A DNA stretch of 64,000 bases from an uncultured Opitutia bacterium (lineage in GTDB: Bacteria > Verrucomicrobiota > Verrucomicrobiia > Opitutales > Opitutaceae): positions 62,001-126,000 of the forward strand of contig CAIMAQ010000002.1 in the NCBI GenBank assembly GCA_903839035.1. Direction: 5' to 3'. The number at the start of each line of letters is the position of its first letter. The first letter of the stretch is position 1. Under the pieces are notes generated by a model that did not search any database, was not told the origin of the DNA, and was given only the letters and a program-made list of their open reading frames with translations. Shown here one piece after another: positions 41,573 to 48,152 of this stretch. The position numbers were made by a program, and so were the translations under genes.

Positions 41573-43546
41573 ATGGATTTCTTCGAAGCTCAGGCCCGCG
41601 CCAAGCAACGCACCGGGCGGCTCGTCGCGCTTTTCGTGGTCGCCGTGATCGGCACCATCCTGGGCGGCTATTTTGCGACGATCTTCCTGCTGGCCTACAG
41701 CCCGACGCGCACCAGCCGCCATCGTTACTATCAATCGCTAAATATCGAGACGACGCCGGTTCAGCTCTGGCAGCCGCAGGTGTTCCTGACGGTCACGGTT
41801 GGCACGCTCCTCGTCGTGGGCATCGCCTCGCTCGTCAAATGGCAGGAGTTCTCCGCCGGCGGTTCTGCCGTCGCCGAGAGTGTCGGCGGCCGGCCCATCA
41901 ATCCGCACACCACCGACCTGCGTGAGCGTAAGCTCCTCAACGTCGTCGAGGAAATGGCCATCGCCTCCGGCATTCCCATGCCCGCGGTGTACGTGCTCGA
42001 CCAGGAACCCGCCATCAACGCCTTCGCCGCCGGCCTCACCACCAGCGATGCCGTCGTCACCGTCACGCGCGGCACGCTCGACAAGCTCACCCGCGACGAA
42101 CTCCAGGGCGTCATCGGCCATGAGTTCAGCCACATCCTCAACGGTGACATGCGGCTCAACCTCCAGCTCAGCGCCCTGCTCTTCGGCATCCTTGTCATTG
42201 GCCTCGCCGGCCGTGGCATCCTCTGGGCCATGACCCGCGGCCGCATCCGCGGCGACGGCAAGAACTCCGGCGGCGCCGTTATCGCCATCGCCGCCGTCGG
42301 CCTCGCCCTGCTCATCCTCGGCTACGTCGGGTATTTCTTCGGCAAGCTCATCCAGGCCGCCGTCTCCCGCCAGCGTGAGTACCTTGCCGACGCCTCCTCG
42401 GTGCAGTTCACCCGCAACCCCGGCGGCATCACCGGTGCACTGAAAAAGATCGGCGGCTTCGCCCTCGGCTCCTCGCTCGAGTCGAACAAGAGCTCGACCA
42501 TCGGCCATTTCTTTTTTGCCCAGGCCTTCGATTCGAGTTTCGGCGGGCTCTGGGCCACGCACCCGACCCTCGACTCGCGCATCCGCGCCATCGACCCGCA
42601 GTTCGACGGCCAGATGTTCGACCCGCCGGAGGTTGTAGACGTGAGCCAAGAAACCTTCGCGAAGGCCGGTTTCGCCCCCGGCGCCCTCGATCATTCCTCC
42701 CTCAAGCGTCCCACCGCCCCGCTCCCCTCGCCCGTCGCCATCATCGCCACCATCGGCACGCTCGCCCCGGCCAACATTGCCCATGCCGAGACGCTCCTCG
42801 CCTCTGTGCCCCCCCGCCTCCGCGATGCCGCCCGCTCGCCCACCGAGTCAGCCGCCCTGCTCTACGGCCTGCTGCTCGACGGCAATGAGGCGATGCGCGA
42901 ACGCCAGCGCACCCTCGTCGCCGCCAAGGCCGGCCCCGAGGCTCGGCGACTGCTCGGCGAACTCGAACCTGCCCTCGGATCGCTTGGACCCGAGCACAAA
43001 CTCCCCCTGCTCCAGCTGGCGGTACCCGCTCTCCGCCACCTGCCGCCGGCCTCACTCGCCCCCTTCCTCGACACCCTCGACGAACTGGTCCACGCGGACG
43101 GCAAGGTTTCCACCTTCGAGTTCGCGCTGCAAAAACTCCTCACGCGCTCCCTAGCCCTCGGTGAAAAACCCGGCGCTGCCGTCGTCCAAGTCTACTCGTT
43201 CAACGCCGTCGCCAGCGAGATCAGCATCGTGCTCTCCGCCCTCGCCTACACGGCGAGCAACGGGGGGCTCGACGCCGCCGGGGCCTTTGCCGCCGGGGCC
43301 GACCAGTTGAAACTGCTCGAGGGCAAGCTGGCCCTGCTCCCGCCCGCCGTCAGCGACTTCGTCCAGCTCGACGCCGCCCTCGACAAGCTCGCCACCGCGA
43401 GTGGCCCGATCAAGCAGCGCCTCCTGTTCGCCAGCGCCCACGTGGTCGGCGCCGACGGCACGATTCTCATCGCCGAGGCGGAATTGCTCCGCGCCATCGC
43501 CGCCGCCCTCGACTGCCCGATGCCGCCGCTCCTTGCGGCCGCGTAA
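41573..43546 (+). CDS. M48 family membrane metallopeptidase with extra C-terminal region
   Basis: A 657-residue protein. Two N-terminal membrane helices (about 16-43 and 68-84) precede a HtpX/Ste24-type protease. The motif HEFSH is at 183-187 (ligands His183, His187) and the third ligand is Glu269 in REYLAD. A second pair of helices (about 205-260) follows the motif. From about 370 to the end is an extra cytosolic part of about 290 residues with two ADGxxxxxE motifs (LVHADGKVSTFE and VGADGTILIAEAELL), resembling TerB-type acidic helices. Probably a membrane quality-control protease. Its neighbours are lemA and ybjQ. Confidence 0.85.
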   Translation: MDFFEAQARAKQRTGRLVALFVVAVIGTILGGYFATIFLLAYSPTRTSRHRYYQSLNIETTPVQLWQPQVFLTVTVGTLLVVGIASLVKWQEFSAGGSAVAESVGGRPINPHTTDLRERKLLNVVEEMAIASGIPMPAVYVLDQEPAINAFAAGLTTSDAVVTVTRGTLDKLTRDELQGVIGHEFSHILNGDMRLNLQLSALLFGILVIGLAGRGILWAMTRGRIRGDGKNSGGAVIAIAAVGLALLILGYVGYFFGKLIQAAVSRQREYLADASSVQFTRNPGGITGALKKIGGFALGSSLESNKSSTIGHFFFAQAFDSSFGGLWATHPTLDSRIRAIDPQFDGQMFDPPEVVDVSQETFAKAGFAPGALDHSSLKRPTAPLPSPVAIIATIGTLAPANIAHAETLLASVPPRLRDAARSPTESAALLYGLLLDGNEAMRERQRTLVAAKAGPEARRLLGELEPALGSLGPEHKLPLLQLAVPALRHLPPASLAPFLDTLDELVHADGKVSTFEFALQKLLTRSLALGEKPGAAVVQVYSFNAVASEISIVLSALAYTASNGGLDAAGAFAAGADQLKLLEGKLALLPPAVSDFVQLDAALDKLATASGPIKQRLLFASAHVVGADGTILIAEAELLRAIAAALDCPMPPLLAAA

Positions 43547-45419: not shown

Positions 45420-46322
45420 TCAGGGCAGCTTGTCCGCCACGGCCCAGTCCGGCCAGGTGTCGTGTGAATAGTCGCGCACGGCCTGGATCACCGCCCGCAC
45501 CAGGAGCGAAGGTTCGACCCGCCACAGCAGACCCATCGTCAGCGGCGCAAACCCCGCCAGCGGCAGCGCGCGCACGTTGCGGTGCTTGATGATCGCGGGA
45601 ATGCCTAGGTTCACCCCGCAGCCGTCGCCGTTCGCCACATAGCACGTGACGAGTTCGACCGACGTCGCCTCCACGGCCTGCGGCCACGTCACGCCCAGCC
45701 GTTTCAGGTCCTTCTGGAAGTTCTGCATGACGCTCGTCGCCGCAGGCAGGCCGATGAGTGGCTCCGGGACTTTCTTCTTCGCCCATAACTCGGCCGCGTA
45801 CTTCCAGGGCCGGTCGCGGGGCACGAGCAGCACCAGCGGCACGCATGCAAGGCGCAATTGCCGGAGCCGCACCGGCGGCCGGGCATCGACCGGCCCCACC
45901 GCGAGGTCGATTTTCCCGTCCAGCAGCAGGGCCTCGAGCTGCGCCTGATGACCCGCCTGCAGGCTCAGCCGCATCCGCGGGTGCAGCGCCCGTACCCGCT
46001 GCATCACCACCGGCATGTGGTCGCGCAGCACCAGCTCCGCCCCGCCGATGCGCAATTCCGGGTCCGCGTCACCCTTCAGCTCGCTCGCCACGCCCCCGAG
46101 GTTTTCGAAAAACGGCTGCACGTGCGCGAAGAGCTTCTCCCCCGCCGGCGTCAGCCGGAACGGGCTGCGCTCGAAGAGTTTCGTCCCGACCGCCTTCTCC
46201 AGCTTCCCCATCTGCCCACTCACCGCAGGCTGCTGGATGCCGTACGGAATGCGCCGCACCGCCGCGCTGATGCCGCCGTGCTTCGCGACGTAATAGAACA
46301 GCTCGAGGTGATGCACGTTCAT
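45420..46322 (-). CDS. LysR-family transcription regulator
   Basis: A 300-residue regulator with a winged HTH at about 1-60 (HHLELFYYVAKHGGISAAVR, QQPAVSGQMGKLE) and a two-lobed effector domain after about 90. It is divergent from the CarF-like gene, with a 284-base gap that probably holds both promoters. LysR regulators often control the divergent gene, so the lipid desaturase is a candidate target. It is convergent with the fucosidase gene, with a 16-base gap. Effector unknown. Confidence 0.9.
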   Translation of the reverse strand: MNVHHLELFYYVAKHGGISAAVRRIPYGIQQPAVSGQMGKLEKAVGTKLFERSPFRLTPAGEKLFAHVQPFFENLGGVASELKGDADPELRIGGAELVLRDHMPVVMQRVRALHPRMRLSLQAGHQAQLEALLLDGKIDLAVGPVDARPPVRLRQLRLACVPLVLLVPRDRPWKYAAELWAKKKVPEPLIGLPAATSVMQNFQKDLKRLGVTWPQAVEATSVELVTCYVANGDGCGVNLGIPAIIKHRNVRALPLAGFAPLTMGLLWRVEPSLLVRAVIQAVRDYSHDTWPDWAVADKLP

Positions 46323-46606
46323 CCGCCACCACGAAACCCCCGCGACGAGCCCCGCGCAACGCCGTTTTCCCGTCCCCGCGGCCGTTCGCGACGCCAGATA
46401 TTTCGAAAAGTGGAATCAAACTCGCCGGGTGCCTGGAACCCATTTCCTCTCACCCATCGCCCCTCGCTCGCCGCCCCCGGCGGCCCCCATCACCAAAAAC
46501 GATGCCCGGCATCAGACTTATCAACTCACGCCCCCGCAGCCTTTCGGATATTCTCATCCCGTCCCGGCCAAGCCAGCGGACCAACCAGCCTCAACCCTCC
46601 ACTCCC
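46323..46606. promoter_or_regulatory. Divergent lysR/carF control region
   Basis: A gap of 284 bases between the divergent LysR gene and the CarF-like gene, rich in C on the plus strand. An in-frame ATG at 46502 extends carF by 35 residues of Pro/Ser/Arg-rich sequence that look non-coding. I do not see a clear promoter or a T-N11-A palindrome with confidence. Confidence 0.35.
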
Positions 46607-47248
46607 ATGGCCTTCCTCCTTCTCACCCTCCGCCTCATCTTCCGGATCATCCTCGTCATTGCCCTCGCCGACTTCCTGGCCGGCACCATCCACTGGGCCG
46701 AGGATGCCTACTTCACCGAAACCACGCCGGTCGTGGGCCCGCTCTTCATCCGGCCCAATATCGTTCATCACCACCATCCGCGTTTCTTCACGCATCTCAC
46801 TTGGTGGCAGAGTTCGTGGGACCTCGCCCTCGTGGGCGCCCTTGTCCTCCTCGCTGCGTGGCCGCTCGGCCTCTTGGGGTGGCCGCTCGGGCTGTTCGTG
46901 GCCCTCAGCGTCAACGCCAACGAGATCCACAAATGGTCCCACCGCACCCGCCAGGAGAACGGCCGGATCATCTCCGCTCTCCAGGACTGGCATGTTCTCC
47001 AAACCCCCCGCCATCACGGCGTCCATCACTCCGATCCCAAGAACACGTACTACTGCCCGATCACCAATTTCGTGAATCCCGTGCTGGAGCGCGTGGAATT
47101 TTGGGCATGCACCGAGGCCGTGATCGAGCGCTTTACCGGGGTGAAACACCGCGTTGACACCGCCGTCCGCGGACAGGGGCCGGGCCCGGCCTGGCTCGCC
47201 GAGTACCGCCGGGATCCGGCGGCCGCCCAATTGCCACGGGCCGCTTAA
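46607..47248 (+). CDS. carF: CarF/TMEM189-type plasmanylethanolamine desaturase
   Basis: A 213-residue membrane protein of the Kua/TMEM189 family. In animals and myxobacteria these enzymes introduce the vinyl ether bond that makes plasmalogens. The His-rich pattern is complete: His29 (DFLAGTIHW), four His at 54-57 (NIVHHHHPRF), His108 and His112 (EIHKWSH), His129, and HHGVHHSDPKNTYY (136-149), then FVNPVLERVEFW. About four membrane helices. The ATG at 46607 begins the first helix. The activity is inferred from the motif pattern. Confidence 0.85.
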   Translation: MAFLLLTLRLIFRIILVIALADFLAGTIHWAEDAYFTETTPVVGPLFIRPNIVHHHHPRFFTHLTWWQSSWDLALVGALVLLAAWPLGLLGWPLGLFVALSVNANEIHKWSHRTRQENGRIISALQDWHVLQTPRHHGVHHSDPKNTYYCPITNFVNPVLERVEFWACTEAVIERFTGVKHRVDTAVRGQGPGPAWLAEYRRDPAAAQLPRAA

Positions 47249-47268: not shown

Positions 47269-47358
47269 ATGATCTTCTGCCTCCTCATCCTCGGCCTCCT
47301 CGTCACGCTGGTCGCCTTCGATTCGGACGAACGCGAGCGGCCGGACGCCTCGCCATGA
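47269..47358 (+). CDS. 29-residue membrane miniprotein, coupled to the next gene
   Basis: A short ORF of 29 codons: MIFCLLILGLLVTLVAF, then an acidic tail DSDERERPDASP. It is one hydrophobic helix, typical of a tiny membrane protein. Its stop overlaps the next gene's ATG in ATGA, so translation may be coupled. It starts 20 bases after the carF stop. I do not recognise a family. It could be a chance ORF, but the hydrophobic-then-acidic shape and the coupling argue for a real gene. Confidence 0.5.
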   Translation: MIFCLLILGLLVTLVAFDSDERERPDASP

Positions 47359-48152
47359 GTACCCCCGGCCCCACTTTCCGTTCCACACACCGGTGCGGCT
47401 TGCGTCTGGTGATCCTGATGCCCGCGCTGCTTGCCCTCACCGGCTGCGTCACGTCCAAGAAATACCGCCTCGCCAAGCCCGATACTCCGCCCGCAAAAGT
47501 GCTGAATTGGCGGACCCTGACCCCACCCGTGGAGCTCACCCTCCAGACGGTGATCATCTTCAAGGGCCCGGGCTCATGGAAGCGCGAGGCCCGCTGGGAC
47601 GAATACCGCGTGGAATTCGCAAATCACGGCGACCAGCCCGCCACGGTGGATTCCGCCACCCTGACCGACCTACAAGGCACCCCGCAGTTTCCCGGCAACG
47701 AACCTTGGGTGCTCGAAAAAATGAGCTACACCAACTGGGATAAATACGGGAAAAATGGGGTCAAGCTGCTGGCGGGGGCGGGGGCTTTGATGCTGTACGG
47801 CGTCGCGGTCGAGGCCGCCGCGTTAAGTTCGTTTCTTGCTGGCGGAGCGACCACCGGCGCGGTGGCGTTCGTCGAGGCCATCCCGGTGGTAGCGGTGGTG
47901 GACATCGCTGTTGTAGCCGTTATGAACCACAACAACAAGTTCAAGGTGCAGCAGGAATTTACCCGGCGCCGCGTGGCACTGCCGCAGACCCTCCAGCCCG
48001 GGAAATCTGTCGCCGGTAGTCTGTTCTTCCCCATGACGCCGGGCCCGCAGCGGCTCAGGGTGAAGGGAAGATCCGGGGCCACCCCATTCGAACTCGTGCT
48101 CGAGCTCAAGCTACTCGCCGGCCTTCACCTGAAACCCGCCGCCGCAAAATAG
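47355..48152 (+). CDS. Putative lipoprotein of unknown function
   Basis: A 265-residue protein with a signal sequence and lipobox LTGC (Cys31), so probably lipid-anchored. It has a beta-rich early part (about 55-125) and a central hydrophobic part (about 135-190). The C-terminus (about 195-265) contains QQEFTRRRVALPQTL and FFPMTPGPQRLRV. The ATG at 47355 is preferred; 67 residues upstream in frame run through carF and look non-coding. The protein is not recognised. Coupled to the miniprotein gene. Confidence 0.7.
   Translation: MSTPGPTFRSTHRCGLRLVILMPALLALTGCVTSKKYRLAKPDTPPAKVLNWRTLTPPVELTLQTVIIFKGPGSWKREARWDEYRVEFANHGDQPATVDSATLTDLQGTPQFPGNEPWVLEKMSYTNWDKYGKNGVKLLAGAGALMLYGVAVEAAALSSFLAGGATTGAVAFVEAIPVVAVVDIAVVAVMNHNNKFKVQQEFTRRRVALPQTLQPGKSVAGSLFFPMTPGPQRLRVKGRSGATPFELVLELKLLAGLHLKPAAAK

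Follow-up and report, generated by a model that had tools for sequence, protein, structure and literature searches.

Does a CarF/TMEM189-type gene in a member of the Opitutaceae make plasmalogens, or does it act on some other membrane lipid? The question is raised by a locus within a 64-kb stretch of DNA (hereafter, the window), in which a predicted desaturase gene lies divergent to a LysR-type regulator. According to the original prediction, the gene product is a CarF/TMEM189-type plasmalogen desaturase homologue that possesses all histidine clusters of its family, CarF being an enzyme that makes vinyl-ether lipids, and the adjacent LysR regulator suggests that ether-lipid desaturation may be under stress control. 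Our preferred explanation, held with modest confidence, is that the locus encodes a membrane-bound, O2-dependent di-iron acyl-lipid desaturase under the control of a dedicated divergent LysR switch. The features on which the argument relies are as follows.

45423–46322, minus strand: LysR-family regulator of 300 amino acids, divergent from the desaturase (Pfam HTH_1 and LysR_substrate domains, conserved partner, clade support 97/99)
46501–46530, plus strand: putative operator of LysR, in which AGACTTATCAACTCACG comes after the dyad GATG-CCCGG-CATC (a conserved part of the intergenic alignment)
46511–46530, plus strand: operator core ATCAGACTTATCAACTCACG (ATCAnnnTTATCnAnTnACG), part of the putative operator at 46501–46530
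46549–46554, plus strand: predicted -10 box TATTCT, which follows the operator core at a distance of 18 bp (inferred from the intergenic alignment)
46607–47248, plus strand: PF10520 lipid desaturase of 213 amino acids (Pfam 130.9 bits, alignment of 35 relatives, residue check, AlphaFold2)

The desaturase and its active site

The family assignment stands. The product of 46607–47248 matches PF10520 (Lipid_desat) with 130.9 bits (E 7e-38) over profile positions 2–174 of 175, well above the curated Pfam cut-off of 26.4 bits; this is the only Pfam match in the protein, and the gene is the only PF10520 gene in its own genome (3.39 Mb, 97.24% complete, so that about 3% may be missing). The start at 46607 is preferred because a longer mechanical reading frame, opening at 46502, would begin inside the operator and upstream of the predicted promoter. 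Relatives of the desaturase come from metagenome genomes that belong to the class Opitutae and fall within or close to the family Opitutaceae, and the nearest homologue, from 'uncultured Opitutae bacterium YR2_bin-0342', shares 93% protein identity. Judging from the substitutions that separate these two genes (dN 0.03, dS 0.25, dN/dS about 0.13 by a Nei-Gojobori count), the desaturase gene is under purifying selection. The AlphaFold2 model, for which 35 collected sequences served as input, is all-helical (pLDDT 87, pTM 0.80), and according to this model the desaturase is a helical membrane protein. No PDB chain is similar to it by sequence, and a fold search of the PDB with the model returned no relative (best E 5.4). 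Downstream, positions 47355–48152 of the window encode a putative lipoprotein with a lipobox-like LLALTGC, which has no match in Pfam or NCBIfam; of the relatives, only the nearest also has it beside the desaturase.

Residue equivalence to PEDS1, CarF and FAD4 was based on published residue numbers and spacing. The eight family histidines (H29, H54, H55, H108, H112, H137, H140 and H141) are all present, invariant in 35 homologues and spaced as published for mouse PEDS1; indeed, the published spacing of H96, D100, F118, H121, H122 and H131 fits H29, D33, N51, H54, H55 and L64 free of gaps. D33, four residues past the first histidine, thus corresponds to D100, which is essential in PEDS1 (PMC9131029, PMC8960569), and it too is invariant in the 35-sequence alignment. 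Given this invariance of the eight histidines and the D100 equivalent, the di-iron site is probably active. It is therefore correct that all of the histidine clusters are present, but the eight histidines are common to PEDS1 and FAD4 (PMC9131029, PMC8960569), so that on their own they do not indicate plasmalogens.

Two other positions set the protein apart. The site of PEDS1 F118, three residues ahead of the HH pair, is occupied by N51, and Asn is found there in 35/35 aligned relatives, which span Verrucomicrobiota and Planctomycetota; the F118A variant of the mouse enzyme retains about 6% activity (PMC9131029, PMC8960569). The ninth histidine, ten residues past H121 (H131 in mouse, H113 in CarF), is required for CarF function (PMC9131029) and is replaced here by L64. 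H63, next to L64, is out of register by one residue, and most relatives have Lys or Arg there. Two related genomes also carry second PF10520 paralogues (L050:1444-2076 and L051:1423-2037), which have neither a LysR link nor an operator. Both paralogues have His at position 64 while keeping Asn at position 51, so position 64 appears to be labile within the clade. Residue differences taken alone do not define the substrate.

The desaturase resembles Myxococcus xanthus CarF and TMEM189 (PEDS1) in its PF10520 superfamily membership, its membrane character, the H96/D100/H121/H122 spacing and the HxxxH and HxxHH motifs. It differs from them in having Asn in place of F118 and Leu in place of the ninth histidine, in falling below the CarF equivalog cut-off, in the lack of recognised ether-lipid genes and in its dedicated LysR neighbour; in addition, the equivalent of the PEDS1 H122–H187 loop is shorter (53 vs. 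65 residues). With FAD4, the phosphatidylglycerol delta-3-trans desaturase of plant and algal plastids, it shares PF10520, the eight histidines and the lack of the ninth; FAD4 acts on an ester phospholipid, which is our working model for the desaturase as well. To our knowledge, no bacterial FAD4-type activity has been described. However, FAD4 has Phe at the F118 site and usually Arg at the ninth-histidine site, where the desaturase has Asn and Leu (PMC8960569, PMC9131029). Alphaproteobacterial CarF homologues, such as that of Bradyrhizobium, are likewise bacterial PF10520 proteins that, by their published description, lack the ninth histidine, and they are reported not to complement carF (PMC9131029). 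In our preferred explanation, the desaturase comes from a clade that is of neither the characterised PEDS1/CarF type nor the FAD4 type.

Ether-lipid genes and the case for plasmalogens

The NF045946 CarF equivalog model is the sole NCBIfam match of the desaturase, but its score of 83.6 bits is far below the cut-off of 500 bits. Nor did the genome supply recognisable ether-lipid precursor genes, the absence of which the original prediction had itself named as a refutation: this holds for every known bacterial route that was sought, and plasmalogen synthesis is thus not supported. No AGPS was recognised in the 97.24% complete genome, which encodes two PF02913 proteins. The first was rejected as AGPS since its best matches, over the full length, are glycolate/lactate oxidase structures, AGPS matching mainly in the FAD-binding half; the second was rejected as a 979-aa FAD/Fe-S protein. 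No fatty-acyl reductase/ElbD was recognised either: the PF07993 matches score 61 bits at most, which is weak, and sit in open frames of 271–389 amino acids that read as SDRs of the sugar-epimerase/dehydratase type. One of these frames, scanned with Pfam, scores better with 3Beta_HSD and Epimerase and is OleD-like. As for PlsA/Ger, DUF2229 is absent from the genome, and the lone BadF-type match is a 309-aa protein.

An epimerase beside an AMP-ligase was rejected as a candidate ElbE/ElbD, the pair being OleD/OleC-like. On contig C62 of the same genome (L084:5137-7930), an OleD-like reductase (NF042422, 390 bits) adjoins an OleC-like beta-lactone synthetase (NF045786, 538 bits); this is possibly a long-chain olefin pathway, and no oleA or oleB was recognised among the scanned neighbours.

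The search for AGPS and PlsA/Ger also covered another seven genomes that carry the desaturase, among which one consists of a single contig. None of the seven has DUF2229, and none of their PF02913 matches points to AGPS: those of full length can be aligned to the pair of reference proteins, and for two of them the PDB gave confirmation. Other members of the Verrucomicrobiota do possess homologues of elbD and agps, and Pontiella, which has elbD homologues, showed no ether lipids (PMC11868695). In the literature searched, neither a published verrucomicrobial PF10520 enzyme nor plasmalogens in Opitutae were found, which is weak evidence. The host genome encodes five classical fatty acid desaturases, so that O2-dependent acyl desaturation is possible in this organism. 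With both the PEDS1-specific residues and every known ether route that was sought missing, we consider an acyl chain close to the glycerol a likelier target than an alkyl ether, and it appears from the sequences that desaturation of ordinary membrane lipids is more likely than plasmalogen synthesis.

The LysR regulator and its operator

That the desaturase is linked to LysR, as first proposed, is strongly supported by a conserved divergent pair, a single LysR clade and a conserved operator. As for control by light, singlet oxygen or stress, evidence was found neither in favour of it nor against it. The regulator at 45423–46322 carries an N-terminal HTH_1 and a C-terminal LysR_substrate domain. 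Divergent LysRs with about 56–88% identity stand beside the desaturase in 26 examined loci (about 23 distinct genomes), and the pair is kept in most Opitutae relatives; in one genome (G054), two LysR genes lie 2.6–4.4 kb from the desaturase. The cultured Brevifollis gellanilyticus (L024) carries the desaturase gene with no LysR beside it. In the tree, desaturase-linked LysRs form one clade (25 rows, support 97/99). Two genomes of the same genus without the desaturase have no close LysR, the best showing about 28% identity.

The other neighbours of the desaturase vary between loci. An M48 protease, a DUF7133/cytochrome c protein, Fic, SufE, TatD and CTP synthase recur; on inspection, none of these was accepted as a functional partner. 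The protease, encoded at 41573–43546 of the window, is HtpX-like with a long C-terminal extension and is found near the LysR-desaturase pair in several loci of Opitutaceae (L002, L007, L014, L032 and L082). The DUF7133 protein, with 1018 amino acids and a C-terminal cytochrome c-like domain, is encoded convergently downstream of the desaturase at L019:2122-5175 and in 15 other loci. A record titled Akkermansia muciniphila (HRS-HS9-bin-183; L012) contains a LysR-desaturase locus of the Opitutae type, almost the same as L008, and is possibly a mislabelled metagenome genome.

The conserved intergenic block consists of a GATR-N5-YATC dyad, the left side of which is less strict, then AnnnTTATCnAnTnACG, and then a TATNNT-like -10 box 18–19 bp further on. 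The putative operator lies between the two genes, where it borders on or overlaps with the -35 region of the predicted desaturase promoter; since it is placed between both genes, autoregulation of LysR is likely on this arrangement. The operator core has one match in the window (0.06 expected), one perfect match in the whole 3.39-Mb genome and exactly one match per locus in 29 of 51 loci. It is retained at some desaturase loci without an adjacent LysR (L003 and L032) and is missing from the loci of Planctomycetota, Verrucomicrobiaceae and second-copy desaturases. Covariation within the dyad (GATA/TATC vs. GATG/CATC) is suggestive, although not significant (Fisher p 0.08). Beyond the perfect match, the genome scan yielded only two matches with two mismatches vs. 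one in a reversed-pattern control, and on this basis we propose no larger set of targets.

The divergent target, the operator in the shared intergenic region near -35 and the likely autoregulation are those of a classical LysR-type system, whereas the PF10520 target is not, nor is the fact that a sister clade with a near-identical operator faces another operon. This sister clade (52–54% identity) occurs in Opitutaceae that lack the desaturase. In three of its genomes (L075, L076 and L077), LysR is divergent to the gene of a rhombotarget lipoprotein (TIGR04179, 297 bits), behind which lies that of an LplT-like transporter scoring 212–216 bits, under the LplT cut-off of 297. The intergenic region there carries nearly the same operator (e.g., ATCGGGTTTATCGATTAACG), as does locus L079; thus, the motif goes with the LysR subfamily rather than with the desaturase alone. 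The operon context of the sister clade hints that this subfamily may respond to membrane-lipid signals.

Competing explanations and proposed function

Among 61 sampled members of the family, 4 carry PF10520, as do 6 of 384 sampled Verrucomicrobiota genomes; it is absent from two genomes of the same genus, and no relatives of the desaturase were found on plasmids or viral contigs. With such an occurrence, the desaturase is a rare, accessory trait. This very patchy distribution, including the absence from the two same-genus genomes, might suggest a horizontally acquired remnant that is decaying or non-functional; however, the low dN/dS, the invariant active site and the conserved operator and regulator largely refute such an explanation, which we regard as highly improbable. 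A genuine plasmanylethanolamine desaturase of the PEDS1/CarF type, obtaining alkyl-ether precursors through an unrecognised pathway or from the environment, deserves more attention, albeit as an unlikely case. CarF is the bacterial PF10520 enzyme that has a published function (PMC9131029), its model is the one that the desaturase matches, and the eight histidines and D100 equivalent are retained; moreover, the possibility that precursors come from outside has been considered for Leptospira, in which AGPS is present and FAR1 absent (PMC9131029). Nonetheless, the plasmalogen reading is weakened by the lack of both F118 and H131, by the score far under the CarF cut-off, by the lack of recognisable AGPS, FAR/ElbD and PlsA/Ger in the desaturase's own genome, and by the absence of AGPS and Ger from the seven others.

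It is also conceivable, if rather doubtful, that the protein is a di-iron enzyme, either hydroxylase or desaturase, whose chemistry is new to PF10520, its substrate being, for example, a head group, a hopanoid or another lipid. This would account for the Asn that distinguishes the clade beside the metal site. The invariance of this Asn in 35 members from two phyla suggests selection and not drift; as the PDB holds no family match by sequence or fold, the active site of the clade is unexplored. The genomic context, however, points to no particular substrate, the neighbours other than LysR being variable. A broader proposal, towards which we lean less than even but more than towards either of the last two explanations, is that the Asn-marked PF10520 clade of Verrucomicrobiota and Planctomycetota performs a lipid oxidation new to the superfamily, that the Opitutae LysR senses a signal derived from membrane lipids, and that an almost identical operator serves the sister LysR clade at its LplT-like operon.

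For the acyl-lipid desaturase that we prefer, LysR, responding to some ligand, would act at 46501–46530 next to the -35 region and thereby control desaturase transcription. The desaturase would oxidise an intact ester phospholipid, as FAD4 does, introducing a double bond (or a related oxidation) in the acyl chain near the glycerol. The family, the active-site residues, the conservation of gene pair and operator, and the lack of recognisable ether-lipid genes are shown by the data; we infer the acyl substrate and the double-bond position, together with LysR-operator contact, activation and not repression, and the identity of the inducer.

CarF/TMEM189 homologues are easily read as plasmalogen enzymes, and the present case indicates that histidines alone are insufficient for equating PF10520 with plasmalogens: in a conserved bacterial clade, the di-iron site is retained, whereas the residues specific to PEDS1 and the pathway are lacking. 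The locus also constitutes a compact regulatory system, with one regulator, one perfect operator in the genome and one enzyme, in which the inducer could reveal the function.
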